In this document: one piece after another, positions 5,619-62,281 of the stretch
Layout of the letters: the number at the start of each line of letters is the position of its first letter
How positions within the stretch are numbered: position 1 is the first letter of the stretch
Virus record (IMG/VR): IMGVR_UViG_3300014838_000015
Coordinates: 1-64,000 of that record
Strand: one strand, 5' to 3'
Origin: a virus
Length of the DNA stretch: 64,000 nucleotides
Program-made: the position numbers and the translations under genes
The notes under the pieces: generated by a model
What the model was told of the DNA's origin: nothing
Databases searched by the model: none
What the model saw: only the letters and a program-made list of their open reading frames with translations

Positions 5619-6154
5619 TTGTTGATGATAATGACATCGCTCATTCAGTTGTAACCCAACATTGGATAATCACAAAATAAACGATTCATTTCCTTTTCAT
5701 TGTTGATGTAAAAACATTGGTGGAGATGTCGGCATCCGAGAGCCGAGTCTACGACCTTTCCTCGAAAAAATTCTACAAGCTTAATCCTTCTGTTTGATCG
5801 TCCTAGGATGGGACTATGTGACCTGTTTTTCGTCGGATTCACAACACGACGTTTCGTTTTTACACCCGACGGTGTTTTTAGTGAATCGCTCCACCAGCGC
5901 TCGACTTGCTGTTCCTAGGTTGTCGAGTACCCGTTCCGTCAGGCCGCGTTAGCGAGCGAGACAGAGACGACGCCGTTATCGTTGGCAGTCAAACGTGGTC
6001 ACGTTTTTGTCGAGGTTCATAACCATCCTCGGCTTGCATTTCTTCAATTCTTCGCCGTATCGAATCCTTTCATCCCCATATGGTGATCAGGAACGTTCCC
6101 TGACCAACAATAGTAACTATACCACCCACGAGCATCGCTTTGCACCGCAAGACG
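5619..6154. other. 536-bp stretch without a convincing gene
   Basis: A 65-codon minus-strand frame (5645-5842) exists but has no ribosome site and atypical composition, so I do not call it. The stretch is richer in GC than its neighbours around 5720-5990. It contains short inverted elements such as TCGGC/GCCGA near 5732-5750 and TCAGG/CCTGA near 6090-6105. A minus-strand segment ends in CATCTCCACCA, which looks like a tRNA 3' end, but the matching acceptor and arms are absent. A non-coding RNA or decayed gene is possible. Confidence 0.4.
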
Positions 6155-7440: not shown

Positions 7441-8322
7441 TCACAACTTCAACAGGAATATCTTGTGACCCGCACCCCACACGGGCCTGACGCCTGCTTC
7501 ATCAACGACCTGCTTCTCCGTCTTTCCAGGTTGAGCACGGTACTTGAAACGATCGAAACGCACTGCGCCGTCGGTGTACCAGTAGTTGACAGTTGTTTCA
7601 CCAACGTTCGTAAACCCACACTGATCGTAGACTCTGCCCGTACCGAACCTCAATTCAGCATACGATAGAATCCCATCAAACGCACGTTGTTTAGCATAGT
7701 CCTTGACGAACGACACCATCTTGCTAGAACCACCACGAACGGAAAAACCTGGTTTGAACGCAACTCGAGCTAGCTCACACACGTGACCCCACTTTTTCTG
7801 AATTGGCGTCCTGATCGTGACTGCGCCGACAATTCCATGCAACGGATGAACGAGAAGCATGTGGCCTGATGAACGCGTGGCACCCTGAACGTGCGATGAA
7901 TCAAGAAACGGTTTCGTCTCGAGCGCCGTGACCACATTCATCTCGCAGTCTCTGGCGTGGAGCTTCATCGGCGTTGAACCAAGCGCATTCGTGACAACTG
8001 ACCTACATACCGCTTCCTTCGCTCGCCATTCATCGCTGAAGAACTGCACGTACCTGACGTTCGCCGCACGTGACCTGACGAGCTTGTTCCTCAGGAAACC
8101 TCGATCATAGATCCCAGGACGGCCACCCATCAGGTCGTGTAGGTCAAAACCAACGTTCTTTGACGGCACCCATGCGTCGAACGTGAGGTCATCTGATGGT
8201 CCTGCTGAACGTTCAGCAACCAATCCAAGCGATGAAACGATCGACAACGCGGTGTTTGTGAAAGCATCCTGAACGGCAACGTCATCAAGGAAACACGGAT
8301 TCGCTTCTGCGGCATGTGACAT
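7441..8322 (-). CDS. Homing-nuclease-like protein with acyltransferase-like C-terminus
   Basis: The 293-residue product resembles a family of phage selfish nucleases. A Vsr/PD-(D/E)XK-type core is followed by a conserved tail containing VQFFSDEW, ARDCEM, then a GNAT-like half with CELARVAFKPGFSVRGGSSKM, YAELRFGTGRVYDQCGF and VNYWYTDG. In related proteins the catalytic core reads roughly D-x-YIP...IEFDG; here it is FDAWVPSKNVGFDLHD with the acidic and aromatic residues altered, so nuclease activity may be lost. ATG at 8322 with AGGAG at long spacing; a TACAAT box is at 8352-8357. It lies next to two other nuclease genes. Family placement is from pattern memory. Confidence 0.6.
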   Translation of the reverse strand: MSHAAEANPCFLDDVAVQDAFTNTALSIVSSLGLVAERSAGPSDDLTFDAWVPSKNVGFDLHDLMGGRPGIYDRGFLRNKLVRSRAANVRYVQFFSDEWRAKEAVCRSVVTNALGSTPMKLHARDCEMNVVTALETKPFLDSSHVQGATRSSGHMLLVHPLHGIVGAVTIRTPIQKKWGHVCELARVAFKPGFSVRGGSSKMVSFVKDYAKQRAFDGILSYAELRFGTGRVYDQCGFTNVGETTVNYWYTDGAVRFDRFKYRAQPGKTEKQVVDEAGVRPVWGAGHKIFLLKL

Positions 8323-10491: not shown

Positions 10492-11355
10492 TCACCCTTC
10501 TTTTGGTTCCCACTCGGCATACTTCCAACCATTCTCATCGCAATAACGTATCGCTGCCTCTCTTTTAGCAACATTCATCGGAATGTCACGCATCGAACGT
10601 GGCTTGATTTCAACGAGACATTGCGATCCATCAACGTACGTTACGTGTACGTCAGGTACATAGTGCCTTGATTTGCCGTCTAATTCATATGGTATAGAAG
10701 TGAATTCCGATTCATATGTTGCAACGTTTTGATCGTTGTCTAACAGCTTGAAGTATTTGAGTTCATACGACGACCTGTACACATATCGTTTACCCGTCTT
10801 TGTCGAATCATGAAATCCTTTCGTCCAATTGAATGAACAATCAACGTACATCGATGCGATCGTCTCTGATATCTTTTTTGAATTGATGGTAAGCTCGCCT
10901 GAAGCGATCATTTTGCTTCTAGTCACGCTGATTTTATCACGGGTCTCTTGACTCATGATCTTTGATGTCATGTGTTCAGAAACTAGCTTTGCAAGCTCTG
11001 GATGTGCTTTATGATATGCTTTAGTGGCAATCGATCGTTTTTCATTTGATTCAGCTGATTGTTTCTTGCCTTTAACGGCTTTTGAAATTCTAAAACGAGT
11101 AAGTTCAGATTTATTGTAAACAGATTTAGGAATATGCGTTTTTCTATACGTCATGAATTTGCCGCTGAAATAAGAAACTTCCTCGCCACAACCACATGCA
11201 CACGTTGGCACAACGCCGTTAAATTCATACTTCACAACGTAATCTTTGAATAAAAGATTATGCATATGCGAAACGTGATATGATAATCCCTTACGATCAT
11301 CGAATGAACGATTACACACCACGCAAGTTACGCGTTGTTTAACACCTGCTTCCAT
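10492..11355 (-). CDS. Zinc-finger homing endonuclease with gp4/TnsA-like nuclease domain
   Basis: From ATG 11355 the protein has 287 residues. It opens with a C2H2-like finger (VTCVVCNRSFDDRKGLSYH) and a CACGCGEE cluster, the same layout as its neighbour at 8415-10460. A middle region has NUMOD3-like basic helices (SAESNEKRSIATKAYHK, SQETRDKISVTRSKM). The C-terminus is a PD-(D/E)XK nuclease of the TnsA/T4-gp4 type: YRSSYELKYFKLLD, HYVPDVHVTYVDG and CLVEIKPRS (D...ExK). The same fold occurs in the gp4-like gene at 33181-33582. A longer frame to 11460 would run through the capsid gene terminator, supporting the later start. Confidence 0.75.
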   Translation of the reverse strand: MEAGVKQRVTCVVCNRSFDDRKGLSYHVSHMHNLLFKDYVVKYEFNGVVPTCACGCGEEVSYFSGKFMTYRKTHIPKSVYNKSELTRFRISKAVKGKKQSAESNEKRSIATKAYHKAHPELAKLVSEHMTSKIMSQETRDKISVTRSKMIASGELTINSKKISETIASMYVDCSFNWTKGFHDSTKTGKRYVYRSSYELKYFKLLDNDQNVATYESEFTSIPYELDGKSRHYVPDVHVTYVDGSQCLVEIKPRSMRDIPMNVAKREAAIRYCDENGWKYAEWEPKEG

Positions 11356-11361
11356 ATCAAG

Positions 11362-11367
11362 ACTATA
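11362..11367 (-). promoter_or_regulatory. TATAGT box 6 nt before ATG of nuclease 10492-11355
   Basis: Lies in the block shared with 10461-10478. Directly downstream of the capsid terminator, so it would restart transcription for the nuclease gene. Confidence 0.45.
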
Positions 11368-11422
11368 CACCACATTATGGTGGTATTCATAACGATAACA
11401 AATAAAATAAATTGTTAAACGA

Positions 11423-11448
11423 CGAAAGGCCCCAAGAGGGACCTTTCG
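11423..11448 (-). terminator. Intrinsic terminator after major capsid gene
   Basis: On the minus strand CGAAAGGTCCC, loop TCTT, GGGGCCTTTCG form an 11-bp stem with one T-G pair, followed by T-rich sequence (TCGTTTAACAATTTATTTT). It sits about 45 nt after the capsid stop codon. Confidence 0.85.
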
Positions 11449-11493
11449 AGAATCATCCAACCATGTAAGTGGTTGAAATCATTGAACGAATAA

Positions 11494-15435: not shown

Positions 15436-15455
15436 TTGATGATTTATGCACAACA

Positions 15456-19730: not shown

Positions 19731-20583
19731 CTGAATCCTCCGTCACCAGCTCATCGTTGAGCTTGCTGTACAACATGAACCTCGTCACGGTGTCATCGTC
19801 AACGTCGACAAGCGTTTCGCTCTGAATCCTGTTCACCGCCTCATCGATCTTCGCTCGATCCAACGTCGAATCACCGGTACTGTCGTTGAGCCTCTTGAGA
19901 ATGTTCGACTTGATCTCGTGAAGTTTGGTGCTAAGCGCATCTGGATCATCGTTCGCCGTAGAAAATGCATATGCACGAAGCAAGCACTTCTGCTCATCGG
20001 ACAACGCATTTGCATATCGCTCGTTCAATCGCTTCATCATCAGCTTCATCAGCAACCGCGTCGAACCAGGTGCATCACCGGTGCCGACCTGCTCGTTGCC
20101 AGACTGCGTCCTCTCGGTGATCAGCCACTTGATCAACTGATCCTCATACGTTGCAATACGTCCCAGGTCTGATCCAGGAGTACGCCAATCATTTATCAAC
20201 GTCTGAATCGTCGCCAACATCCTGTACTCGTTCACCTGCCTGTCATAAAAATCGGCATCATTAAGCGATTTATTTATCGCGCTGATCAACAAAGATTTCT
20301 CGCTATCGAGCTGCGCTGTGTCGTGCGATCTGACGACCTGTTTGGCTTCCTGTAGAATGGACGCGGCAACGTGTTCGCTCGATACGCTTGTCCTGAACAG
20401 CGCGTTGACCAACCTAAACTCCTTGTAGAGCTCTGTTCCAGGCTTGAAGTACCTCTTTATAATACGTAGAGCTGCGTTCGAACGCTTCGTATCACCACGA
20501 ACGATGGCCTCAGACACGCTGAGAACGAGGAACTCGTGCAGCAAACCAACGGATCGCTTCTTGTTGTGCGACTTAGCCATCAT
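19720..20583 (-). CDS. Conserved head-module protein between portal and protease (287 aa)
   Basis: Start codon ATG at 20583 overlaps the portal stop and its end overlaps the protease start, so translation is coupled on both sides. It begins with a basic segment (MMAKSHNKKRSVGLLHEFLV), followed by NAALRIIKRYFKPGTELYKEF and a long all-helical body. From memory, similar proteins occupy the same place in other large T4-like phages, but no function is known to me. A portal-associated or core role is plausible. Confidence 0.75.
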   Translation of the reverse strand: MMAKSHNKKRSVGLLHEFLVLSVSEAIVRGDTKRSNAALRIIKRYFKPGTELYKEFRLVNALFRTSVSSEHVAASILQEAKQVVRSHDTAQLDSEKSLLISAINKSLNDADFYDRQVNEYRMLATIQTLINDWRTPGSDLGRIATYEDQLIKWLITERTQSGNEQVGTGDAPGSTRLLMKLMMKRLNERYANALSDEQKCLLRAYAFSTANDDPDALSTKLHEIKSNILKRLNDSTGDSTLDRAKIDEAVNRIQSETLVDVDDDTVTRFMLYSKLNDELVTEDSDVG

Positions 20584-23500
20584 TCATCCTCGCTATCATC
20601 ATCAAAATCAGCATCGCCATCGATCGTAAGTACACTCTCATTAATCAAAGGTTCGTCGGGTGCAGCTCCATTCGACCTTAAATCTTCATTGATCACAGCG
20701 TTCGACTTCGAATCGATCTCATCCTGAACGTCGGTTCCCTCGGAAATTAGAATCGCTCGTTGCTCGTCGGCGTGTTCGCTGAACGCCTTAGATTCCGTCA
20801 TCTTACGAAGCATGTACACCGTGTCGTTCGGTAACCGTCCACCCGCTATCTTCCTTGGCTTCTGAACGATGCGATCGACGCTCTCACCGAACGGGTTAGA
20901 AACCATCGAATTGATGAAGTTGTTGTCGTATGGATCACCCATCGCCTCATTGTCGTTGCTCGTCATCTTGTTGAGGTCTGGAGTCGCGGTCGAGTTCGAT
21001 CCGTGGTGACGACGCCTTCCGCGATTGTAGAGAGAACGTTGCAGCTGCGACTGTGCCTTGATGGGCGGACCAACGTCGCCGTAGAGATGCGGAAGCTTGA
21101 GCGAGAACGATTCATCGTCGTCGAGGTCATCGCTGCCGGTCAACAACTGAACGCCGGCGTTCGTCTCTTCCTCGGGTTCATCGCCAGCGTTTTCAGGCGC
21201 TGGTGTCGCTTCTTCGCCTGCACCCGATTCCTCACCACCGCCACCCGATTCCTCGCCACCGCCGCCACCGAACAATCCCTCGGCGCCGCCTTCTGTCCCA
21301 CCACCGCCGAAGCCACCGTCGCCGCCTTCGATGTCATCGTTGACCTGCTTCTCCTCGAGGCGTTCGGTGTCGAGAACCTTGATCTGCTCGTCGTTGAGCC
21401 CCCAGATCTCCTTGCGGATGAACTTCTTGCTGGCCATTCCCTCAGGAGCTGACCCGGCGATCTCGAACTTCGCTCGCCACAGCTCGAGCTTCTGTTGCTG
21501 AGCGACCGTTGACGGATTTGACAGGTGGAGCGTGAAGTTCTGAAGATCCTCGTTGTCGAAACCGTGAGCGTAGAGGTGAATGATCGCAAGTTTATTCAAT
21601 TCGGCGGTGATTGTCTTTTGAATAACGTTTGTCGTACGAGAAAATCTTATGTCTTCCTGAGCTAATGTCGCTTTCGAATTATGAACGAAAACAAATCCAT
21701 CAAGACTTAAGTCAGAAATTGCAAAATTGTGGTATTTTTCAACCTCAAGATCATAAACCGCAATTGGTTCATCAACGGTGATGATTTCAACAGATAGAAC
21801 CTTATGATTATTTTTCAACGTTTTCTTAAAATCTATAAATGTTGCATATCCATTCTCTTTAATAATACGTTTAACAACCGATCCACAAAATGGAACATTT
21901 CCTAATCGTTTCCAATCTGTCATTGACGTAACGTTGTTTTTAACACAAAACTCAGTCAATTGTTCAATTGTATACGTTAACCTTGGTCTAGTTCCACGTG
22001 GATACCCACCAAAGTGTTGTACCAACCATTGTGATATATTAATACCGTTTCTCGTTAGATTATTTCTAAAACAACTCCAACTAACATTAATATCCAAAAG
22101 TTTACACATGAAATCGTTACGATCGCTGCATTTTTTTGCTATTTCATGTAATTCATTAACAGATACATTTTTTTGCTTATACTTTGAATTATTATTTGAT
22201 ATTGCCTCTCGTCTGCTTCCATCATCATTATCCCAAGCGTATTTAACACCATTAACATGTGCTGTTAAATATTTTTCAGTTTTCATAACTTCACGTAACT
22301 TATCGCGAGAAGACTCAGATAACAAATTTGACAATGCACCCTTCGAATGAAGTAATGCATGAGCCTTCCTACCCATCTTCAACAAATTAATTGGTGAATT
22401 ATTTCGTTTGTTACAATCAACGTGGTGAACAACATAAGAACGTTCAAGCTTACGTGAAGGATCATCACTAACAAGACCTGCTTCACTCACCAAACGGTGT
22501 GTGTATTTCCATTCACAATTCTTATCAAGAACCATCTCGTAACCGTTAAGTTCATCATCTCCACCTTTCTTTTTCGTCGATGATGTTCTACGATAAAGTG
22601 GCATCAAGCTATCACAAATTTTAAGTTCATCAGCTCTCTTATATGAACCATCTCTCATCATGAATGGATGATTTTCTGTCACATCAAACGTAGTCCCATC
22701 ATCTAACATGATCCTGTGAAATTGTGTTACATCCTTTGTTTTCCATACTCTGTTAACTTTACCTGGTACAACATTTCCAGTTTCATTATCAATTGAGTAA
22801 ACCCAAACATCCTTACAATCAGATTTTGCTAATGTTTCAATCGTTTGCGTTGAACCATCCAATAAAGCAACGTTCGTATTGCCACGTAGACAACTCAACA
22901 TTTCATCGTAACCGAGGTATGCTCTTGGAATCTTCAACGCTGCAAATAATTTTTTCTGAATATAAGCGACGTCCTCAACGGCGGCCGTGTTTTGTCCACC
23001 CGCGAGCGTGTCGATCTTCGTGCCCGTTTCGCCACCACGAATGGGAATGAAGAAATCTTCCTCGACGGAGTTGTGCAACATTACGTAACCAAGCGATTCA
23101 TTGTTTGATTCATCAAACGATCCCGCGGCAAAGTTGTGCCAACGTTCAACGTTGATGCAACCGGTGTCCTCTCGAACGCGCAACCTCTCAACGCCATCGA
23201 CCTTCGACGATTTCTTGGCACACGACGGCATCAGGGGCTGGTCATGTTGCAGTTCGTCGGCTCGTTGGTACATACCATCGAGCAGCATGAAGCGGTGATC
23301 GGGTGTAACGTCGAGCGAAGAACCATCGTCGAGCGTCACTCTAACGAGCTCCGCGTTCCTACGAGTGATTCCGGCCCAGGTGACCTTGCCAGGAACGTAC
23401 TTCTTCGTCTCAGCGTCAAATGAATACACCCACTGATTGCGCTTACCCGCATTCCACTCGGAAATCAGATCACCGAGTCGCAGCGTCCCGGCGTCACGTA

Positions 23501-25295
23501 TCTTGATTCCGGTGTCGAGCGAGAGGCACATCGGATTGTAACGTAAATCGACCCTTCCGGTCGTCCTGTCCACGACTGGCGTCGTTCGCATCTGCTGACG
23601 TTGCTGTTCGATGTACGTATTGACCTCGCCAGGCGGCAGGTTCGCAACGTCGATGTAGAACACGCGACGCTCAGGAGCTCGAACGACGCGGTACACGAGC
23701 ATCGCGTCCTCGATGAGAATCAGCTGACGCCAAATCCGTCGAGCGGGTTCAATGATCGACGAACCATACGGCAAAAACATATCATTTCCTAGAAGCCTAA
23801 AGTGGGTGACCTCCCAGTTCTCAAGCGTTCTGTTGCCGAGCGTTACCCACCTGTAACGAACGGCGAAAGGATCGTCACGATCGTAGTTCTCCTCGCGTTC
23901 GATCTCATTGACTGGAATGGGAAACGCATTGATTACGCCGTATTCGGGAGACACGTCGTTGTAGAGGAAAAAATCGCCGTACTTACACAGGTTCCTAGCC
24001 CACGACCTGAGGTTAAACTCGACGTTGAGGACGTTGTAGAACAGATCCTCCAACAGTTCACGGACACGCTCGTTGTCGGAATAAACGTGAAGTATACGAC
24101 CCTTCTCGTCCTGAGCACACGTTTCATCAGCGTAGATGTCCATCGCCGCGGCGATCTCTGGCGTGTTGTGAGAAACAACGCTGTCGGTCGCAAAGTTCTT
24201 GTACCCGTCGACTGTCAGATCGTAGAGGGGTTGAATGCCCGCGCTTTTGACGCCGACGACCTTGCAATCATGGTACGAATCGACCCACCGTGAGAACCCA
24301 TCGAACCCTTGACCACGAAGACACTGCATCACAGCGTTGATCGACGTTCCAAGCTTCTTCGCTAGATCAACGCGACTCATTCCTTGTTCGTAAGCATCGC
24401 ACACTCGCTTGTACGTTAGTTCAACGCCTAGCACACCGTCGTTCTTCAGGTTGTAATCGTACGTTTTTGCAAAAACTTCGAAGTTCGCAAATCCAAACTC
24501 TGCAAGCCTGGCACGAATCAAGCTAAGGTTTGCACACAGTGCCTCGCTAACGATCGACTGATTGAATCCCAATTCATCACATGTCTGAAGTATCTTTGCA
24601 AACGTAACATCGTTTCGCTTCGGTTGATCGTTGTCCCGTTTCTTACCAGACACAAGCTCAGAGAACAACACGTGTTCAGGAACCCATGGTCGTTCCTTCT
24701 GCATCGTGTAAACACGCCGGTGTTCTTCGTATCCGCACTCGCTCTCACGGCAGAACGGCATCATTGCATCACCAACGACGAGGTCCTTGACCTTGCGATA
24801 CGATCCGTCTCTGAGCATCAAACGATGTTCGCCTGAGGCGGTTATTGACTTACCGCTGTCGAGTTTCACCTCGAACGTTTCGTCAACGCACGTTTGTCTA
24901 GCCTGCTTACCGATCGCAGGAACGATAGTTTGCGTAGCATGATCATATGAATAAACAATGAACGTATGATTTGGATCTTTGTCACATTCGCTTGATAACT
25001 CACCGATGGTTTTAAACCCACCAGGAACAGCAATTTGCGTCGACTCAATTAAACTGTACTCCATTTCCTGAAAATCTTGATATCTCATTAATCTCTCGGA
25101 GAGATTGTACGCATTACTCGTGATTGTCGCATACGTTGGCGATAATGATTTTTGAAACAGTAACGTTCCAGATGATTTCGTTTTATCTGCAACTGCGATC
25201 GTTGTATCGAGTGCTCTAATCTTCCTCTTAACGATCGGTCCTGACTTGAACAATCGTGATAATCGCCGAAATAGGCTCTTCGGTTCTTTTGCCAT
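20580..25295 (-). CDS. 20: Portal vertex protein (gp20-like) containing three inteins
   Basis: The 1571-residue precursor would splice to about 716 residues. Extein landmarks are RLMRYQDFQEMEY joined to TPEIAAAMDIYADET, the LVYRVVRAPERRVFYIDVA core, EEDFFIPIRGGETGTKIDTL and SKATLAQEDIRFSRT, all typical of gp20-like portals, which form the DNA entry ring and nucleate the prohead. After the conserved core comes an acidic, Gly-rich low-complexity tail of some 170 residues. ATG at 25295 is preferred over a TTG at 25340 because GGGA precedes it and portal homologues begin near there. Three in-frame interruptions are annotated separately as inteins. Without splicing the protein could not form a normal portal. 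Confidence 0.93.
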   Translation of the reverse strand: MAKEPKSLFRRLSRLFKSGPIVKRKIRALDTTIAVADKTKSSGTLLFQKSLSPTYATITSNAYNLSERLMRYQDFQEMEYSLIESTQIAVPGGFKTIGELSSECDKDPNHTFIVYSYDHATQTIVPAIGKQARQTCVDETFEVKLDSGKSITASGEHRLMLRDGSYRKVKDLVVGDAMMPFCRESECGYEEHRRVYTMQKERPWVPEHVLFSELVSGKKRDNDQPKRNDVTFAKILQTCDELGFNQSIVSEALCANLSLIRARLAEFGFANFEVFAKTYDYNLKNDGVLGVELTYKRVCDAYEQGMSRVDLAKKLGTSINAVMQCLRGQGFDGFSRWVDSYHDCKVVGVKSAGIQPLYDLTVDGYKNFATDSVVSHNTPEIAAAMDIYADETCAQDEKGRILHVYSDNERVRELLEDLFYNVLNVEFNLRSWARNLCKYGDFFLYNDVSPEYGVINAFPIPVNEIEREENYDRDDPFAVRYRWVTLGNRTLENWEVTHFRLLGNDMFLPYGSSIIEPARRIWRQLILIEDAMLVYRVVRAPERRVFYIDVANLPPGEVNTYIEQQRQQMRTTPVVDRTTGRVDLRYNPMCLSLDTGIKIRDAGTLRLGDLISEWNAGKRNQWVYSFDAETKKYVPGKVTWAGITRRNAELVRVTLDDGSSLDVTPDHRFMLLDGMYQRADELQHDQPLMPSCAKKSSKVDGVERLRVREDTGCINVERWHNFAAGSFDESNNESLGYVMLHNSVEEDFFIPIRGGETGTKIDTLAGGQNTAAVEDVAYIQKKLFAALKIPRAYLGYDEMLSCLRGNTNVALLDGSTQTIETLAKSDCKDVWVYSIDNETGNVVPGKVNRVWKTKDVTQFHRIMLDDGTTFDVTENHPFMMRDGSYKRADELKICDSLMPLYRRTSSTKKKGGDDELNGYEMVLDKNCEWKYTHRLVSEAGLVSDDPSRKLERSYVVHHVDCNKRNNSPINLLKMGRKAHALLHSKGALSNLLSESSRDKLREVMKTEKYLTAHVNGVKYAWDNDDGSRREAISNNNSKYKQKNVSVNELHEIAKKCSDRNDFMCKLLDINVSWSCFRNNLTRNGINISQWLVQHFGGYPRGTRPRLTYTIEQLTEFCVKNNVTSMTDWKRLGNVPFCGSVVKRIIKENGYATFIDFKKTLKNNHKVLSVEIITVDEPIAVYDLEVEKYHNFAISDLSLDGFVFVHNSKATLAQEDIRFSRTTNVIQKTITAELNKLAIIHLYAHGFDNEDLQNFTLHLSNPSTVAQQQKLELWRAKFEIAGSAPEGMASKKFIRKEIWGLNDEQIKVLDTERLEEKQVNDDIEGGDGGFGGGGTEGGAEGLFGGGGGEESGGGGEESGAGEEATPAPENAGDEPEEETNAGVQLLTGSDDLDDDESFSLKLPHLYGDVGPPIKAQSQLQRSLYNRGRRRHHGSNSTATPDLNKMTSNDNEAMGDPYDNNFINSMVSNPFGESVDRIVQKPRKIAGGRLPNDTVYMLRKMTESKAFSEHADEQRAILISEGTDVQDEIDSKSNAVINEDLRSNGAAPDEPLINESVLTIDGDADFDDDSEDE
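21678..22892 (-). mobile_element. Portal intein 3, full length with HNH endonuclease
   Basis: 405 residues from Cys (CLRGNTNVALLDGS) to the terminal VFVHN, followed by Ser as +1 residue. Block B-like FDVTENHPFMMRDGS and terminal blocks YDLEVEKYHNFAI and HN are present. The centre contains an HNH nuclease (VVHHVDCNKRNNSPINLL, then HALLH) plus helix-turn-helix-like repeats. The DNA is clearly AT-richer than the exteins, suggesting recent arrival. It sits in the conserved SKATLAQEDIRF site of the portal, so the extein after splicing reads DEMLS-SKATL. Confidence 0.9.
23070..23528 (-). mobile_element. Portal intein 2, mini-intein without endonuclease
   Basis: 153 residues from Cys (CLSLDTGIKIRDAG) to YVMLHN followed by Ser. 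Block B is seen as LDVTPDHRFMLLDG and the C-terminal block as VERWHNFAAGSF. There is no room for a homing nuclease, so the element can splice but should not home by itself. Composition matches the exteins, in keeping with long residence. Confidence 0.9.
24165..25055 (-). mobile_element. Portal intein 1, decayed endonuclease region
   Basis: 297 residues from Ser (SLIESTQIAVPGGFKTIGEL) to VVSHN followed by Thr. Block B is ITASGEHRLMLRDGS and the C-terminal block YDLTVDGYKNFATDS. The region between splicing halves aligns in layout with intein 3, but the HNH catalytic residues are missing; helix-turn-helix-like segments (SRVDLAKKLGTSINAVMQC) remain. It looks like an intermediate between the full intein 3 and the mini-intein 2. 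Confidence 0.9.
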
Positions 25296-25352
25296 CAGTT
25301 GATCCCATTCCTCATTCGGTGTAGAATTCCAAGCGTACAACGCAGCAAAGGC

Positions 25353-38554: not shown

Positions 38555-39857
38555 GCCTGACGCGGAACGTTAGATCTCTGTCTGGCGACTTTTGAATCGG
38601 ACGTGAGACCTTTGCGATCGCCAATAAATTGTCGTTCGCATCGTAAAGCCCTATCGAACTGATGTACGTAAACGATTGCTGCGTGTCCTCCTGACCAACG
38701 TCAATGACAACGATCCTGTTTGAAGAATCGGTGTACGTTGGATTGGAGGAGTAGTTAAATTCATCTGCTTCCGCTCGACAGAATATCAGCGTCGAATTAA
38801 TATTCGTTACGTTCTGGAACGTGATCGCCGTCTGGCTACCGCTACCCATCCTGCACGATGCGACGTGATCTATGATGTTGTCTAACGATCCACTCACCAC
38901 AAAATCAGGAATGAACTTCGATGCAAACTGCGTCTGCGTACCCTTGGATCCCAACACCTGGTTACCAAGCGGTGCCATGGCATCGATGGTACCAGAAACG
39001 AACTGGCTGCCACTCGTCACCTTGGCGAGGTCCAGGACAAGAACGCCACGGTCGTAGAACATCAGACCAACGTTTCTAGTCGTGTTCGCCGAATCGACAA
39101 CGTTTCCGACCTGACCACCAAACGTCGACAGCTTGTTCGACGCAGCACCGATGTCGGTGTAGATCGCACTGCCACTACAAGACGTTGAGTACAGGTTTGG
39201 AGACGTCACTCCAAAAGTACCGTTAATCGTGTTGCCACCCGTGGATGGATTGTTCGCAGAACCTAGGTACGTCTCGACTAGACCTGAAACGTTTCCGGAG
39301 TATGGAACTGGAGCCGATGGACTGGGCGAATAAACGCTGGCTGTCTGAAAAAACCTCATCGCAAACGTCTCACGTTTGATGCTATCGCGAGCGAACAGTC
39401 GCTTGAAAGAGATGAACAGAGCAACGTCGATCTGATCTGAGGCGTTTGAGCTGTTTAGCGGAGACGAGAACACGTTCGACGCGTTGCCAAGCAATAACTG
39501 AGCGAACTGACGATAGACGTCCAACTTCTCGCGCATCATGAGGCTAGAACTTGGAAACAGTTCCTTGCCTGCAGAATCGACGCCGGTCTGAGCAGTCAGC
39601 TCCGTTGGACCTCCGGGTTGTAGACCCATCGTCATGTCAAAGATCGAATTGGCAGTCTGAAGCGTAAAATCCTGATCATAAATTGTTTGAAATATCGACG
39701 ATGTTACGCCTGGGCCTATTCCCCCAGTCACAAAAAGTTGATATTTTCTGCGCGAAACTGACCCGCTAATGTCCTCTTGAAGAACGTCCACCAGTTGGTT
39801 CAAAAAACTTCGTGCAGTCTTTATGTCTGCAGGAAGTATCTCTTTAAATGTCGCCAT
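38544..39857 (-). CDS. Virion structural protein (437 aa), unknown
   Basis: ATG 39857 with GGAG upstream. The start MATFKEILPADIKTARSFLN is followed by SVSRRKYQLFVTGG and FQTIYDQDFTLQTANSIFD, then MREKLDVYRQFAQLLLGNA. A Ser/Gly/Thr-rich middle and a beta-rich end (YISSIGLYDANDNLLAIAK, ending FRVRLDF) follow. Its last residues resemble the end of the 1137-residue virion protein (MFKCKFDF). I recall similar proteins among large-phage structural proteins; exact position in the particle unknown. It is bracketed by two homing nuclease genes. Confidence 0.75.
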   Translation of the reverse strand: MATFKEILPADIKTARSFLNQLVDVLQEDISGSVSRRKYQLFVTGGIGPGVTSSIFQTIYDQDFTLQTANSIFDMTMGLQPGGPTELTAQTGVDSAGKELFPSSSLMMREKLDVYRQFAQLLLGNASNVFSSPLNSSNASDQIDVALFISFKRLFARDSIKRETFAMRFFQTASVYSPSPSAPVPYSGNVSGLVETYLGSANNPSTGGNTINGTFGVTSPNLYSTSCSGSAIYTDIGAASNKLSTFGGQVGNVVDSANTTRNVGLMFYDRGVLVLDLAKVTSGSQFVSGTIDAMAPLGNQVLGSKGTQTQFASKFIPDFVVSGSLDNIIDHVASCRMGSGSQTAITFQNVTNINSTLIFCRAEADEFNYSSNPTYTDSSNRIVVIDVGQEDTQQSFTYISSIGLYDANDNLLAIAKVSRPIQKSPDRDLTFRVRLDF

Positions 39858-40902
39858 ATACTACATTCTCCGTTGTTTTGTTCTGTTCTTTCAATGGATA
39901 CCCTGGTTCATGAACGAAGTACGACACAGCGTTGGACGCAGATCGCAATTGTTCAACCAACACGTCATATGTATGCTGTTTCACTACCTTACCCCACTGT
40001 AAATCTGTCAGCCTGAACAGCTTAAATCCTTCGTGTTGCTCAAACCACTTCATCGTTGCAACATCATTCTTCATAGTTACTCTGATTTTATCATTAATAC
40101 GTTCTTCACCCATCAACCCGTGCCAATATACACCATCAACCTGAATGTAAAGATCGAGCGATTTGACGTAAAAGTCAATTGAATGACGTGCAATCCAGCT
40201 CTGCGTTTTTATGTCATCAACTCCAAACGTGCTACTCAAAAACTTACCAACATCACGTTCAGGTTTTGAAACGAACAATCGACCCTCAGCAATCAACGTC
40301 TCTCGACGTTTTCTATTCGATTCAACGTAATCGATCTTACTCTTGACATTTGCCGACTTAAAAGGATTATCAACGCCGTAATTTTTTAACCACGTTACAA
40401 TTCTTTTGTTTAAAACACTTTTCAATCCTGACGGTGATGACACACCGTATTTTTTAAATGAATTACTTCTACGTTTTTCTAAAACAACGGAAGAACGCAT
40501 TGGATGCTTTACACCATAACGTTCAAGCATCGTTTTTTCATATATTGGCCTAAGAACCGGCGATCCAAGAGAACCGGCGGATCTAAACCTTTCGATCGTC
40601 GTTGCTACGCACTTATCCCTAATGACCTTCAACTTCCATGGATGATCAACGCCGTACAACTCAAGGCACGTTTCCCTACACTTTTGTTGAACTTCGTTAG
40701 ATATTGCTTTTTGTATATCAGATAATCTTTTCCGTCGCGTGGGACAGGCATACGTACACTTCTGAGAACAGTACAACGCTTTTGTCTTTTTATGCGCAAT
40801 GAATTCATTACCACAAAAATCACACTTGGCGCATAGAACGGTCTTCGTACGTCGCCTTCCCAATGAATCATTCACCTGCAAACGCTCAACGTTGACTAGC
40901 AT
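39844..40902 (-). CDS. Homing endonuclease, zinc finger plus YGVxxP repeats plus Vsr-like core
   Basis: From ATG 40902: an N-terminal zinc motif (CAKCDFCGNEF, CSQKCTYAC), then four repeats of the type LYGVDHP, RYGVKHP, KYGVSSP, NYGVDNP with a basic helix between, as in phage selfish nucleases, and a C-terminal Vsr-like core RHSIDFYVKSLDLYIQVDG followed by VYWHG. The gene ends inside the start of the virion gene 38544-39857 (14-nt overlap). It is preceded by a TAGAAT box 7 nt before ATG without a ribosome site. Confidence 0.82.
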   Translation of the reverse strand: MLVNVERLQVNDSLGRRRTKTVLCAKCDFCGNEFIAHKKTKALYCSQKCTYACPTRRKRLSDIQKAISNEVQQKCRETCLELYGVDHPWKLKVIRDKCVATTIERFRSAGSLGSPVLRPIYEKTMLERYGVKHPMRSSVVLEKRRSNSFKKYGVSSPSGLKSVLNKRIVTWLKNYGVDNPFKSANVKSKIDYVESNRKRRETLIAEGRLFVSKPERDVGKFLSSTFGVDDIKTQSWIARHSIDFYVKSLDLYIQVDGVYWHGLMGEERINDKIRVTMKNDVATMKWFEQHEGFKLFRLTDLQWGKVVKQHTYDVLVEQLRSASNAVSYFVHEPGYPLKEQNKTTENVVYGDI

Positions 40903-40909
40903 CAATCAG

Positions 40910-41976: not shown

Positions 41977-42930
41977 CTACGGTAGATTACCGCCTTCACG
42001 AGAATACCTCCATACGTATCCAGCGCTTGTCTTTGTTAGGCCTGATGCAGCGTGAGAAATAGCACAACCTGTAACACCAACGAAATGTGCTGCCTTATTG
42101 ATTGAAGAGAACGTTCTCAACAAGTTTCCGTTCTTATCGAACATTTCAACCGGTTTAGATGAAATTTCAGACAAAACCTCCAATCTTTTTGCTAAAAGGT
42201 TTTCACGTCTGTTTGCTCGACCAAGAATTTCTTTCATTCCATTTTTCATCAAACCGTTTACAATTGCTCGCTTGTGTTCTTCCGTAAGTTTCCTTCCGGT
42301 GAGCTTCTTCCTTATCATTTCACGTTGTTCTTCAGGAATCACCTTGCCTTTCTGCGACGCAGATAACCTTTCAAGGTGTTGTTGAGAACGATTCTTCGAA
42401 TACTCGCTTTTCTTTGCTCGCGTTTGGTCAGAATCCTTGACACCGGTGTGAACAACGCTTTGTTTAACACGTGTTTCTTCTGACGCTTGCAAACCTAAGT
42501 GAGACTCACGCATTGCCCTTCTAGTTTCATCGCTTGGTATCCAACCAATTCTTGCTTTGCTGGCCCGTTTTTTCGATTCATCGTTCCACTTCAATCCTAA
42601 CGTTCCATCGCCGCCCTTCGTCATATTATAACCACTTTGAGGATGCTCAACAAAGTATGTCTTCAATTCAGCGATGAGCCTAACATCAGCGTCCTTCAAT
42701 GATTTAGAGTCTACGTGAGTTTCTAGAACGCTTCGTTCAAATGCATCAATACCGTACTTCCTTATCGCACGGTGAATTAAACACATTGATCTCTTTTTAA
42801 ACGCATCATTAATGTGACCGTTCCAACGCTCATCAATGGTCGTAGCAGTTATTCCCACATACCCCTTCCCATTCACACGGTTCCTGATGAGGTACACCTT
42901 TCCATCGATCGCTTTACCATCATCGATCAT
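41977..42930 (-). CDS. GIY-YIG homing endonuclease with NUMOD3 and NUMOD1 repeats
   Basis: Classic layout: GKVYLIRNRVNGKGYVGIT as GIY-YIG start, RWNGHINDAF, the catalytic Glu around IAELKTYFVEHPQ and YNMTKGGDG. Then at least four NUMOD3 units (WNDESKKRASKARIGW, SEETRVKQSVVHTG, SDQTRAKKSEYSKN, EEQREMIRKKLTGRKLTEEH) and a C-terminal NUMOD1 unit (PVEMFDKNGNLLRTFSSINK, ending GYVWRYSREG). It is inserted exactly between a virion gene and the 5' end of the GFLDN-family gene, which appears to have lost its start codon. ATG 42930 has no ribosome site but follows a TAGAAT box. Confidence 0.9.
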   Translation of the reverse strand: MIDDGKAIDGKVYLIRNRVNGKGYVGITATTIDERWNGHINDAFKKRSMCLIHRAIRKYGIDAFERSVLETHVDSKSLKDADVRLIAELKTYFVEHPQSGYNMTKGGDGTLGLKWNDESKKRASKARIGWIPSDETRRAMRESHLGLQASEETRVKQSVVHTGVKDSDQTRAKKSEYSKNRSQQHLERLSASQKGKVIPEEQREMIRKKLTGRKLTEEHKRAIVNGLMKNGMKEILGRANRRENLLAKRLEVLSEISSKPVEMFDKNGNLLRTFSSINKAAHFVGVTGCAISHAASGLTKTSAGYVWRYSREGGNLP

Positions 42931-57671: not shown

Positions 57672-58751
57672 ATGGCAAAAACGCTGAAAAAACTGTACGA
57701 TGTCAAACGAATTGAACTCATCAAGGAACGAGCAAAATCAGCGAACGTTCAATTGTTGAACGAACAACGAACCGTAACGTTGCTTTTAGAAGTGATGGAT
57801 CAAGATGATTTGAACAAAGTAACAGCAATCATCCAAAAACTGGATAGCATCAAAACTCCTGAGTTACCAAGACTAAGCGCTGCAATTGAACAAGCGATTT
57901 CAGAAATAAACAAGTACACCGGTGGTGGACCATTGACGAAGGCATGGAACAAACTAAAAACGATGGCAGGAATCGATAATCCCGTTGTCAAGGTCACCGT
58001 ATTTGCAAACGCGCTTGAACGTGGCTTTGCTCAGGTACCAACGATCCTCAGAAACAACGGCATCAATCTAAAAAATGCCGACCTCACAAAAAGCCTGGCA
58101 ACCATGCTCGCTGACCCGAAAAAAACCGGCGAAAAATCCGATAAAGACATCGGCATGCAACCTCCAGAACAACCTGAATCGTTCAACGTACCAGAAGGCG
58201 TGCAGAACGAAGCAAGGGTTGACGTTGCAGGAAAGCTCAAGATCGTTGTTGATCAGCTACAAAAGGCACTTGCACCCGGAGGAATATTCGGTGCGTTCAA
58301 GAAGGTTCCTTACATCAACGGTCAAGAATTAGCACAGGAACTCGTTCAGGCACCGATCAACGTATTTGCAAAGATCGCAAAGAAAATACAAACAGGTGCA
58401 AAGGCCGCAGACGTAGCTCCGGACCTCAAATCACAGATCACTGGACAGGGTGGCGAACAAACGAAACCCACAACTGACGATGATCCAACGAAGAAGACGC
58501 AACAAACACAACCAACGTCACCAAGCGGGCCAACCAACTCTCCGCAGCCCACCGTGCCCACAGGAGAACATCCAACAAACGGAGCGCCCGGTGAGAGAGG
58601 TGGAGGTGCACCGCCTGCACAAGATCACGAGAAGGTGATTCTGGGGCAATTGAAGGATAATGGTACACTTACACGATTGGGAATCAATATTCCAAACGCT
58701 AAAGCATTTATAAAAGCAATAAACGACCTAGGCGTTTTTAAGCAAAAATAA
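57672..58751 (+). CDS. Unknown plus-strand protein with Pro/Thr/Gln-rich linker (359 aa)
   Basis: ATG 57672 with AGGA at 7 nt. Residues 1-120 are helical and basic (MAKTLKKLYDVKRIELIKER), with VTLLLEVMDQDD and LPRLSAAIEQAI. A Pro/Thr/Gln/Gly linker lies around 255-315 (KKTQQTQPTSPSGPTNSPQP). A short helical C-terminus follows (VILGQLKDNGTLTRLGINI). The modular layout suggests a virion-associated or adaptor protein. It runs against the leftward block and overlaps the end of the GroEL-like gene tail to tail by 14 bases. Confidence 0.7.
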   Translation: MAKTLKKLYDVKRIELIKERAKSANVQLLNEQRTVTLLLEVMDQDDLNKVTAIIQKLDSIKTPELPRLSAAIEQAISEINKYTGGGPLTKAWNKLKTMAGIDNPVVKVTVFANALERGFAQVPTILRNNGINLKNADLTKSLATMLADPKKTGEKSDKDIGMQPPEQPESFNVPEGVQNEARVDVAGKLKIVVDQLQKALAPGGIFGAFKKVPYINGQELAQELVQAPINVFAKIAKKIQTGAKAADVAPDLKSQITGQGGEQTKPTTDDDPTKKTQQTQPTSPSGPTNSPQPTVPTGEHPTNGAPGERGGGAPPAQDHEKVILGQLKDNGTLTRLGINIPNAKAFIKAINDLGVFKQK

Positions 58752-59931
58752 TTCCATCAAGATCGTTCAACGTTCTCATACACTGCACAACGTATGTTTG
58801 TGCTGCAATCTCTTTCGCAACGAGCTCACCATCGATCGTTAACCCGTGTTCGATCATCGACTTGACAGAGCGCAATGATTGATCTATCGCTTGCGAATTC
58901 ACAATGAAATTCCTGTTGTTGGGCAATCTAACGATGACGTGATTTGGCGTTAGAGACCTGATTCGTTTATCAAACAACATTCCCTTATCATCTATGCTTT
59001 CATCGTTTCTACGATTTCGCAACTCGTAAACGTGTTGAGACACGCGATTATGTGTTTTTGAATTCGTTACAACGACGCGACCATTTTGAACCGTAATTTG
59101 ATCAATGATTGGAGCATCGCTAAATCTTATGCTGCTGATTAAATCACCCTTAAGGCTAGACACAAGATCACAACCACAAACAATTGATATATCAACCAAC
59201 GTATTCATTCCCTCAAGATCAAAGTTCACGGCGATTGGAATGACACGTAGGCTACCTCTATCGTAGTTTGTTCGTAACGTATGAATAACATCATCTGAAG
59301 CTCCACGTAAAAAAACAACGCATGGTTCTTTAGCTTCACCCGCAGACTCCAACAAATGATGTATTTCTGACACGTTTTCAACGTAACCATCGATGCAAAA
59401 GATCCTTGAATGAGTAAATGTTACATTGAGTGGTATCAATTGTTTTAATAAAAACGTGTAACCTCTAACGAGTTCAACGGATGGCACGTTCGATTGCGTC
59501 TTTTCAACGATCACCTTTCCACAGAATCCAGCCGACAAAATTGCCTTATTTGTCAGGTTTTCAATGAAAGCATCAGCATCTTTTGTACACGTTGAAACAA
59601 TTCGCTTAACATCGTTCATCGTTGGTGCGATTGCAGAGCGTGAAACAACGTTTGTGCTGGATGTTTGCTCATTGATGAGCAATTCGATGAACCTATCGAA
59701 TCCACCAACGCAGAACTTTTCAGCCATCACCGCATTGCTCATTATCGTTTCATGAATCAATCGTTCGGCATCCGTTTTTAACTTCAGTCCAAACAACACC
59801 TGCATTTTAGTGTGTAACATTATTCCATTCTTTTCTCTAGTCAATGCAGATGATTTGATACAAGAATGTATTCTCTTGATAACATTCAAAACGTTTGAAA
59901 TAATTGCTTGAGCGTTGCTTGTTGTTCCCAT
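58738..59931 (-). CDS. Divergent GroEL-like protein lacking ATP-binding motif (397 aa)
   Basis: Residues 100-300 follow the GroEL intermediate/apical layout: GKVIVEKTQSNVPSVELVRG (GroEL: GVITVEDG...LDVVEGMQFDRGY), RIFCIDGYVENVSEIHHLLE, AKEPCVVFLRGASDDVIHTL (GroEL: GKPLLIIAEDVEGEAL), RVIPIAVNFDLEGMNTLVDI and CGCDLVSSLKGD. Residues 330-380 (IRSLTPNHVIVRLPNN, SLRSVKSMIEHGLTIDGELV) recall GroEL's return into the intermediate domain and VEEGVVAGGG. The GDGTTT phosphate loop is absent; KFCVGGFDRFIELL stands at its place. So it may bind substrates or host GroEL without ATPase activity. A TACATT box precedes ATG 59931. Confidence 0.72.
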   Translation of the reverse strand: MGTTSNAQAIISNVLNVIKRIHSCIKSSALTREKNGIMLHTKMQVLFGLKLKTDAERLIHETIMSNAVMAEKFCVGGFDRFIELLINEQTSSTNVVSRSAIAPTMNDVKRIVSTCTKDADAFIENLTNKAILSAGFCGKVIVEKTQSNVPSVELVRGYTFLLKQLIPLNVTFTHSRIFCIDGYVENVSEIHHLLESAGEAKEPCVVFLRGASDDVIHTLRTNYDRGSLRVIPIAVNFDLEGMNTLVDISIVCGCDLVSSLKGDLISSIRFSDAPIIDQITVQNGRVVVTNSKTHNRVSQHVYELRNRRNDESIDDKGMLFDKRIRSLTPNHVIVRLPNNRNFIVNSQAIDQSLRSVKSMIEHGLTIDGELVAKEIAAQTYVVQCMRTLNDLDGIIFA

Positions 59932-59937
59932 GCCAAC

Positions 59938-59943
59938 AATGTA
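59938..59943 (-). promoter_or_regulatory. TACATT box 6 nt before GroEL-like ATG
   Basis: TACATT, GTTGGC, ATG, with TTAACG 17 nt upstream as possible -35. Transcribes away from the repeat region. Confidence 0.45.
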
Positions 59944-59980
59944 ACACTGGACGACACGCGCGTTAAGAATATGTTTAACA

Positions 59981-60029
59981 GAAATTTCTAAATTTCTAGA
60001 AATTTCTAGAAATTTAATCTTTAAAGATT
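59981..60029. repeat. Tandem AAATTTCTAG units and TAATCTTTAAAGATTA palindrome
   Basis: Three near-perfect 10-base units (AAATTTCTAG) run from 59982 to about 60015, followed by a 16-base AT palindrome. Phased AT tracts of this sort bend or melt easily. Confidence 0.6.
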
Positions 60030-60048
60030 AAATTTTCATTTACAGTGG

Positions 60049-60198
60049 TCGCTGTACGCCGTTCGCTGTAAATGAAAATTTAAATTTTCATTTACAGCTG
60101 ATAGCTGTTGCCGTTTAATCATTACTACTAAATTTAAGCTATCAGCTTAAAGCTTAAATTTAAGTTAAATTTAACAGTACAGCTTAACAGCGTAGCAT
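60049..60198. repeat. 150-bp tandem repeat unit 1
   Basis: Starts TCGCTGTACGCCGTTCGCTG, contains the 34-bp palindrome at 60065-60098 (half-site GCTGTAAATGAAAATTT) and TTAATCATTACTACTAAA at 60115. The second unit begins exactly 150 bases later. Confidence 0.85.
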
Positions 60199-60324
60199 TC
60201 GCTGTACGCCGTTCGCTGTAAATGAAAATTTAAATTTTCATTTACAGCTGTTAGCTGTCTCTGTTAATCATTACTACTAAATTTAAGCTTAAACTGATAG
60301 CTTAAATTTAGTAGTAATGATTAA
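60199..60324. repeat. Tandem repeat unit 2 with 26-bp stem inverted repeat
   Basis: First 52 bases are identical to unit 1, including the 34-bp palindrome (60215-60248). Its TTAATCATTACTACTAAA block at 60264 is mirrored at 60299-60324, making a 26-bp perfect stem with a 9-base loop. Confidence 0.85.
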
Positions 60325-60376
60325 GCGGTTGTTAACGTAACCTGTACAAGAAGCGTGAATAGATTATCTTGTCTAG

Positions 60377-62281
60377 ATGGTACTAGACTTCAGCAGAAGT
60401 ATCTTCGAAGAACAGATCAACATCCCTCCAGAAACTCAGATCATATTCATTTCAGATATGTTCGCTAGCGAATTTATCGGAGGAGCTGAGCTAACAACGC
60501 AAGCGTTGATTGATTCCAGTCCTTTCAACGTTGCAAAAATCAGAAGCAAGGATGTAACTGAGGAATTCATACGTAAGAATGCGAACAAATTTTGGATCAT
60601 CGGGAATTTTTCTCAGCTGAATCCTGAGTGTATCCAGAAATTAATGCTCACTTCGTACTCGATTCTCGAATTCGATTACAAGTATTGTACGTACAGATCG
60701 CCTGAAAAACACGCCGCAATTGCAACGATGCCATGTGATTGTCACAACAAAAACAATGGAAAATTCGTTGAAAGTTTCTACAACGGATCAATGGGATTGT
60801 GGTGGATGTCAAAGAAACAGGAAGAACGTTACACAACAGCATTTCCAGTTCTTTGTAACGTGTCTCAACCAACGCTATCCAGCGTTTTTGATATACGAAC
60901 GCTTGATCTTTTACGAACGTTACGTATGAAGTATGCGTCAGTTGAACGATTGAAATGGGTCGTTTTAGGAAGTGATTCTTGGATAAAGGGATCAAAAATA
61001 GCGATTCAGTGGTGTAAAGATTCAAATAAACAATATGAGGTTATTTCAAATTTACCGTATGAACAAATGCTTGAGAAATTGGCATCTGCGAAGGGACTCG
61101 TGTACCTTCCACGAGGTGGTGATACGTGTCCTAGGTTGGTGATTGAAGCAAAGTTGTTGGGTTGCGAATTACACCTCAATGATAACGTTCAACACAAGGA
61201 TGAGGAATGGTTCGCAACAAACGATCTTGAAGCGATTGATTCATATCTCAGATCGTCTCCAGAACGTTTTTGGAATTCAATCAGACGAATGATTGATAAT
61301 GAACCAACGATAAGTGGTTATACAACAACGTACAATTGCATTGATCAACAATACCCGTATAAGCAATGCATTTCATCGATGCTTGCGTTTTGTGATGAAG
61401 TCTGCATCGTTGATGGCGGATCAATTGATGGAACGTGGGATGAATTATTGCAATGGAATCTAACAGAACCAAAATTGATCATTAAACAAATCAAGCGTGA
61501 TTGGTCGAGCAAGCGTCATCCGGTGTTTGATGGAATGCAAAAAGCTGAGGCAAGAAAACTTTGTACGTCAAAGTACTGTTGGCAACAGGATTCTGATGAA
61601 ATTGTTCATGAAAATGATGCTAAATTGATTGCTGGTATGTGTAAATTCATGCCAAGCAATGTTGATATTATGGCGCTTCCCGTGATTGAATATTGGGGAA
61701 GCGCAGATAAAGTACGTTGTGATGTAACGCCGTGGAAATGGCGATTGAGTAGAAATAAATTGAACATCACGCATGGAATTCCAAAGCAACTACGTCGAAC
61801 AGACGAAAATGATGAGATCTATGCAGCACAAGGTACAGATGGTTGCGATATGATCGATTCTGTCACTGGATTATCATTACCGCTTGTGAACTTTTACAAT
61901 CAACAGGTAGAATCATGTAGGATGAATGCTTTACGCGGTGATGATCGCGCACGTGTTGAGTATGAACGTTGGTTCAATGATGTTGTGAATTGTTTGCCAA
62001 GCATTTTTCATTATTCGTGGTTTGATCTTTCACGAAAAATTCGATTGTATCGTGATTACTGGCAAAACCATTGGAGAGCGTTATACGATCAAGATACGTC
62101 AGACACTGCACAAAATAATATGTTCTTTGATTTACCATGGTCAGAAGTTACAGATGAAATGATTGATGCACGCGCCGAGGAGTTAACACAAATTGGCGGT
62201 CATATTTGGCACAGCAAGTACAACGGCGAACGTACACCATGGATAACGTGTGGTAGGATTCAACCCAAGGTGATGTTATGA
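60377..62281 (+). CDS. Two-domain glycosyltransferase (GT-B-like plus GT2)
   Basis: The 634-residue protein has an N-terminal GT-B/GT4-like half (IIFISDMFASEFIGGAELTT, LKWVVLGSDSWIKGSKIAI, then GLVYLPRGGDTCPRLVIEAK, the donor-binding-type loop). The second half is a GT2-type domain (YPYKQCISSMLAFCDEVCIV, DGGSIDGTWDE, WQQDSDEIV as DxD-like motif). First gene of the rightward block, coupled to a methyltransferase (ATGA). It may build or modify a glycan on DNA, on the virion or on the host surface; the acceptor is not known. No ribosome site precedes ATG 60377. Confidence 0.85.
   Translation: MVLDFSRSIFEEQINIPPETQIIFISDMFASEFIGGAELTTQALIDSSPFNVAKIRSKDVTEEFIRKNANKFWIIGNFSQLNPECIQKLMLTSYSILEFDYKYCTYRSPEKHAAIATMPCDCHNKNNGKFVESFYNGSMGLWWMSKKQEERYTTAFPVLCNVSQPTLSSVFDIRTLDLLRTLRMKYASVERLKWVVLGSDSWIKGSKIAIQWCKDSNKQYEVISNLPYEQMLEKLASAKGLVYLPRGGDTCPRLVIEAKLLGCELHLNDNVQHKDEEWFATNDLEAIDSYLRSSPERFWNSIRRMIDNEPTISGYTTTYNCIDQQYPYKQCISSMLAFCDEVCIVDGGSIDGTWDELLQWNLTEPKLIIKQIKRDWSSKRHPVFDGMQKAEARKLCTSKYCWQQDSDEIVHENDAKLIAGMCKFMPSNVDIMALPVIEYWGSADKVRCDVTPWKWRLSRNKLNITHGIPKQLRRTDENDEIYAAQGTDGCDMIDSVTGLSLPLVNFYNQQVESCRMNALRGDDRARVEYERWFNDVVNCLPSIFHYSWFDLSRKIRLYRDYWQNHWRALYDQDTSDTAQNNMFFDLPWSEVTDEMIDARAEELTQIGGHIWHSKYNGERTPWITCGRIQPKVML

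Follow-up and report, generated by a model that had tools for sequence, protein, structure and literature searches.

What function is served by a dense array of palindromes and repeats that lies where the genes of a phage turn from leftward to rightward? A first-pass annotation had offered a replication origin, a partition-like site or a bidirectional operator. The window analysed here comprises the first 64,000 nucleotides (1-64000) of a virus record of 101,225 bp. As judged from its proteins, the virus (W) is an uncultured giant phage of the T4 superfamily: the capsid protein matched Gp23 (E 4e-77) and the terminase was of the T4likevirus type (E 6e-13). SbcC/SbcD-type and primase proteins were also encoded. 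Three relatives carried end overlaps of 110-190 bp and were therefore apparently complete, with lengths of 309, 340 and 369 kb; it is thus likely that the 101-kb record covers only part of a jumbo genome. Isolate phages searched by DNA and with the GroEL-like, glycosyltransferase and 154-aa proteins returned no match, and no match was confirmed among genome contigs searched with the GroEL-like alignment.

Other features of the window were recorded. A tmRNA gene was found at 5718-6077 on the minus strand by Rfam (RF00023, 94 bits), and ARAGORN reported no tmRNA. The portal gene (20580-25340, minus strand) encoded 1586 aa with an HNH-endonuclease segment, which is probably an intein or an inserted homing endonuclease; the terminase of relative G011 was likewise interrupted. 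Homing-endonuclease-like genes (HNH, GIY-YIG) were scattered amid the structural genes on the minus strand, at 7441-8322, 10492-11460, 39844-40905 and 41977-42930.

The array occupied the spacer bounded by two start codons, that of a GroEL-like gene read leftward and that of a glycosyltransferase gene read rightward (Table 1). ORFs to the left of it lay nearly all on the minus strand and those to the right nearly all on the plus strand, and no other large transcription divergence was present in the 101-kb record. The switch between leftward and rightward transcription, a feature of T4-type origins, was thus confirmed at 59932-60376. No ORF of at least 45 aa was found within the spacer, in agreement with the earlier statement that nothing is encoded there. 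A conserved 359-aa gene just left of the divergence (57672-58751, plus strand; homologues 50-60% identical) ran opposite to the direction of its neighbours. In the right arm of record G000 (63.0-93 kb), genes for nicotinamide phosphoribosyltransferase, a UDP-glucose dehydrogenase-like protein, an epimerase and a glycosyltransferase were present.

Table 1. Spacer, repeat elements, promoter-like elements and flanking genes, in window coordinates
Feature	Position	Strand	Remark
GroEL-like protein, 397 aa (PHROG 5725)	58738-59931	-	leftward flank, ATG adjoins spacer
Non-coding divergent spacer, whole array	59932-60376 (445 bases)	.	31% G+C vs 44.5% in record
CGCGCGTTAA, left-edge element	59957-59966	.	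similar form in many relatives' spacers
ATTCTTA, candidate leftward promoter	59964-59970	-	6/7 match to ATACTTA, 39 nt before GroEL-like start
AAATTTCTAG-type short repeat, ~10-bp period	59982-60016	.	positional counterpart of relatives' 10-bp-phased repeats
28-bp perfect palindrome	59989-60016	.	inside AAATTTCTAG-type repeat
26-bp perfect palindrome	60010-60035	.	
67-nt direct repeat, copy 1	60049-60115	+	holds palindrome copy 1
34-bp perfect palindrome, copy 1	60065-60098	.	
26-nt element TTAATCATTACTACTAAATTTAAGCT, copy 1	60115-60140	+	
67-nt direct repeat, copy 2	60199-60265	+	94% identical to copy 1
34-bp perfect palindrome, copy 2	60215-60248	.	identical, 150 bp from copy 1
26-nt element TTAATCATTACTACTAAATTTAAGCT, copy 2	60264-60289	+	left arm of inverted repeat
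26-nt element TTAATCATTACTACTAAATTTAAGCT, copy 3, inverted	60299-60324	-	right arm of inverted repeat
CTGTACA-N16-TATCTT, degenerate promoter-like	60342-60370	+	ends 6 nt before glycosyltransferase ATG
634-aa family-2-like glycosyltransferase	60377-62281	+	rightward flank, ATG adjoins spacer

All four of the record's longest perfect palindromes (34, 34, 28 and 26 bp) fell within the spacer, and the count of 34-bp perfect palindromes expected in 101 kb was approximately 7e-6. Much of the anatomy described earlier was reproduced, with corrections. The identical 34-bp palindromes were indeed 150 bp apart, but the "150-bp tandem units" said to carry them repeat only in part, sharing stretches of 67 nt (94% identical) and 26 nt (100% identical) spaced 149-150 apart, with an overall ungapped identity of 59%. 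The inverted repeat with a 26-bp stem was complementary at 26 of 26 positions around a 9-nt loop. Three phased units had been described; the period of about 10 bp was observed, but only two exact copies of AAATTTCTAG were present (59990 and 60000), flanked by AAATTTCTA at 59982 and AAATTT at 60010. A further copy of the 26-nt element, the third and in inverted orientation, had been missed, as had the match of 60111-60328 to its own reverse complement (72%, BLAST).

Repeat density at the spacer was the extreme of the record (-log10 p of 241, compared with 20 at the next peak), and among 200-bp windows its AT-richness ranked in the highest 0.1%. Folded as single-strand DNA, the spacer reached -104.7 kcal/mol compared with -31.8 in shuffles (z -20). 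Its predicted local curvature was not exceptional, and intrinsic bending was rejected. The array was unique in the 101 kb and so did not recur at unrelated places; a search of IMG/VR with two exact patterns, the 34-bp palindrome and the 26-nt element, gave no match. The palindrome/repeat array is a real, strong structure, though an assembly error is conceivable.

The divergent GroEL-like/glycosyltransferase pair was kept in over 30 contigs of uncultured phages, found by searches from both proteins. The nearest syntenic relative was represented by L009 and L087, which were identical over the compared 821 bases; relative to W, the GroEL-like protein was 53% and the 154-aa protein 69% identical. 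The L009 spacer had no palindromes, and the palindromes and 150-bp repeats of W were absent from the nearest relatives. The W array sat between counterparts of the two promoter elements found in the relatives' spacers, but its palindromes were not conserved.

Repeats of other kinds were found in the relatives. The 10-bp lag was the strongest in their spacers (z 11.7), and short repeats occurred in many of them, including (ACTAGATCAG)n in L252 and clusters of GATCTAGA in L249 and L247; further examples came from L042, with a unit of 26 bp, and from L055, with a repeat of 61 bp. In G004 (complete, 309 kb) the spacer was the top repeat peak of the genome, as in W. By unselected repeat density, W and G004 were the only ones in which the locus was the highest peak of the genome, and most relatives' spacers did not stand out as repeat peaks within their genomes. 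The second-highest non-coding repeat peak of record L086 contained a tRNA-like gene, recognized by eye, at about 1720-1795. In each of the ten records, the AT content of the spacer ranked among the highest 0-3% of 200-bp windows. In line with the similar forms of the left-edge element in many relatives' spacers, CGCGCG was observed 11 times against 0.5 expected.

Words common to the relatives' spacers exceeded chance with a combined p of approximately 1e-9, a value inflated by near-identical spacers. In a leave-one-out test W scored 0 and shared none of the common words of the other spacers; sharing of motifs by W is therefore not claimed. GATCT, CTTAAG and AAATTT were considered as a clade signature that included W, in which they peaked, and were rejected because the words had partly been picked from the same spacers. 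Since the relatives' spacers carry repeats and W lacks the shared words, the place and the style of the locus are conserved and its sequence is not.

Between the GroEL-like gene and the spacer, most relatives carried a small conserved gene (L006-L056) with the motif LNGGFDxL, whose product is probably a membrane-anchored coiled-coil protein. This gene was missing from the 101 kb of W and from L020, L042 and L047. The array could accordingly be a lineage-specific expansion of little function, in which slippage or recombination filled the space of the lost gene. The absence of the array from the nearest relatives and the SbcC/SbcD-type homologous-recombination proteins encoded by W would fit such an event. 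However, two perfect, identical 34-bp palindromes and three identical 26-nt elements must be very recent or selected, and relatives that possess the small gene also have repeats here. We regard expansion as improbable.

Promoters were sought in five phage records as words that, ahead of genes, favoured the sense strand. ATACTTA occurred upstream of genes in the sense orientation only (11 versus 0 in G004, 3 versus 0 in W, and also in others), about 20-30 nt before genes; W and relatives had it ahead of the same ORF beside the capsid gene. T4-like late promoters differ between phages, being TATAAATA in T4 and CTAAATA in Aeh1 (PMC1524935); because of this variation, ATACTTA is read as a putative late-type promoter of the clade. 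In the spacers of 32 relatives, TACTTA was found 15 times leftward and 0 times rightward, against an expectation of 2.2 on each strand. TGAACA, in the last 60 nt before the glycosyltransferase start of the same spacers, was found 15 times rightward and 0 times leftward or at the mirror position, with 0.5 expected. The fuller rightward element of the relatives was TTGAACA-N16-18-TANNAT, and its -10-like hexamer often ended 6-19 nt before the start codon, which suggests very short rightward leaders. In W the candidate elements were less exact, with 6/7 matching positions at the left edge and 5/7 plus 4/6 at the same place on the right.

Conserved promoter motifs that face outward in the relatives thus give good support to a bidirectional control region, as annotated earlier. 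The promoter-like elements at the edges of the W spacer also face outward, so that the array lies upstream of both and transcription of it from them is not expected. A reading of the array as an RNA element was rejected: the Rfam search gave no match in the spacer, no terminator was present, and both elements point away from the array.

The plan of the locus resembled that of known phage origins. The active T4 origins oriE, oriF and oriG are located where transcription diverges; oriE contains iterons of 12 nt, and oriF and oriG need a promoter and an A+T-rich unwinding element (PMC3016281). W shares with them membership of the T4 superfamily (Gp23 capsid, T4-type terminase), a transcription switch point, AT-richness, candidate promoters at hand (degenerate in W) and repeats, as in the oriE iterons. 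Unlike the T4 origins, W has long perfect palindromes and 150-bp repeats in place of 12-nt iterons; no MotA-type middle promoter was identified in W, and its origin activity is putative. No box of type TTATNCACA was present in the spacer (one occurred in 101 kb, at 15444), and a DnaA-type origin (oriC) was rejected. The promoter-early-stem-loop (PeSL) cassettes of T4-like phages (named in PMC4503421) similarly have an intergenic stem-loop just upstream of a host-like promoter. However, they are many and scattered, whereas the W locus is single and lacks a terminator-like stem; with 0 terminator-like sites in 59700-60600, a PeSL cassette was rejected. Baculovirus hr elements consist of AT-rich repeats centred on a palindrome of about 30 bp and are reported to act as origin and transcription enhancer (PMC6669502). 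W resembles them in AT-rich repeats and palindromes, a resemblance of plan only: the viruses are unrelated, and hr are many per genome, with imperfect palindromes bound by IE-1. In the literature on palindromic origins in jumbo phages we found no precedent.

The reading that we favour, tentatively and at somewhat under an even chance, is an island of divergent promoters with an AT-rich core of repeats that acts as a T4-type replication origin. The late-type motif at the left edge would drive the leftward arm of chaperonin and structural genes, and at the right edge a promoter of host sigma70-like type would drive the rightward glycosyltransferase arm. Transcription from the flanking promoters, or an initiator or regulator on the repeats, may open the AT-rich, hairpin-prone DNA, and forks would then depart co-directionally with both diverging transcription units. 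No initiator gene was identified in support of this reading.

GC skew, which had been named earlier as a check, gave a mixed answer. Within W the flip of raw skew was fully confounded with gene orientation, and because gene strand and side could not be separated, raw skew was rejected as origin evidence. The raw cumulative skew of the three complete relatives had no extremum at the locus. When skew was taken at third-position/fourfold sites and corrected for gene strand, G002 and G003 had their best switch, in the origin sense, no farther than about 4 kb from the locus. In G004 this switch lay 6-16 kb away, depending on the gene cut-off; the best switch of G001 was displaced by 57 kb. The result for G003, which is linear in its record and was treated as circular, is therefore weak. 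These signals were small (t = 1.1-3.6). Among incomplete records, G006 and G013 agreed with an origin at the locus and G012 was opposite. The strand-corrected skew in relatives is suggestive of an origin at the locus, with weak support. The proposed replication origin is thus plausible and favoured on circumstantial grounds, with the T4-like plan in its favour and raw skew against it.

Alternatively, the palindromes and repeats could be sites at which a phage regulator, dimeric or multimeric, binds to switch the rightward operon (early) and the leftward one (late), with replication starting elsewhere. Such a pure operator/enhancer, itself well short of probable, is nearly as likely as the origin. 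It accounts equally well for promoters and dyads: the left and right promoter motifs belong to different classes and both have the array upstream, dyad-symmetric sites are repeated at a spacing of 150 bp, and the 10-bp-phased sites of the relatives suggest a protein on one face of the DNA. However, 34-bp perfect palindromes exceed one ordinary dimer site, the fast sequence turnover would demand a co-evolving regulator, no regulator gene is adjacent, and some relatives' strand-corrected skew gives a hint of replication. Nothing was found in support of the partition-like site proposed earlier. A partition, packaging (pac) or cohesive-end site would suit a unique non-coding locus with repeats, but the terminase is about 34 kb away, the 110-190-bp end overlaps of the complete relatives are located elsewhere, and no ParA/ParB-like neighbour occurred among the genes scanned; we consider it very improbable.

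The locus is ordinary in kind, a divergent control region and possible origin, and unusual in degree for a T4-type phage. A bolder version of the favoured origin, which we think rather unlikely, is a single-copy, cruciform-prone palindromic origin/enhancer at a clade-wide divergent early/late switch, where repeats turn over while place and phasing are kept and W is the most palindromic case. Origins of giant phages have mostly been guessed from GC skew, and protein searches of the isolate collection returned no relative of this clade. If true, the GroEL-like/glycosyltransferase divergence would provide a gene-anchored site for the origin and the early/late switch across a whole uncultured 300-370-kb clade, and would offer a testable case of palindromic, fast-evolving origin DNA.
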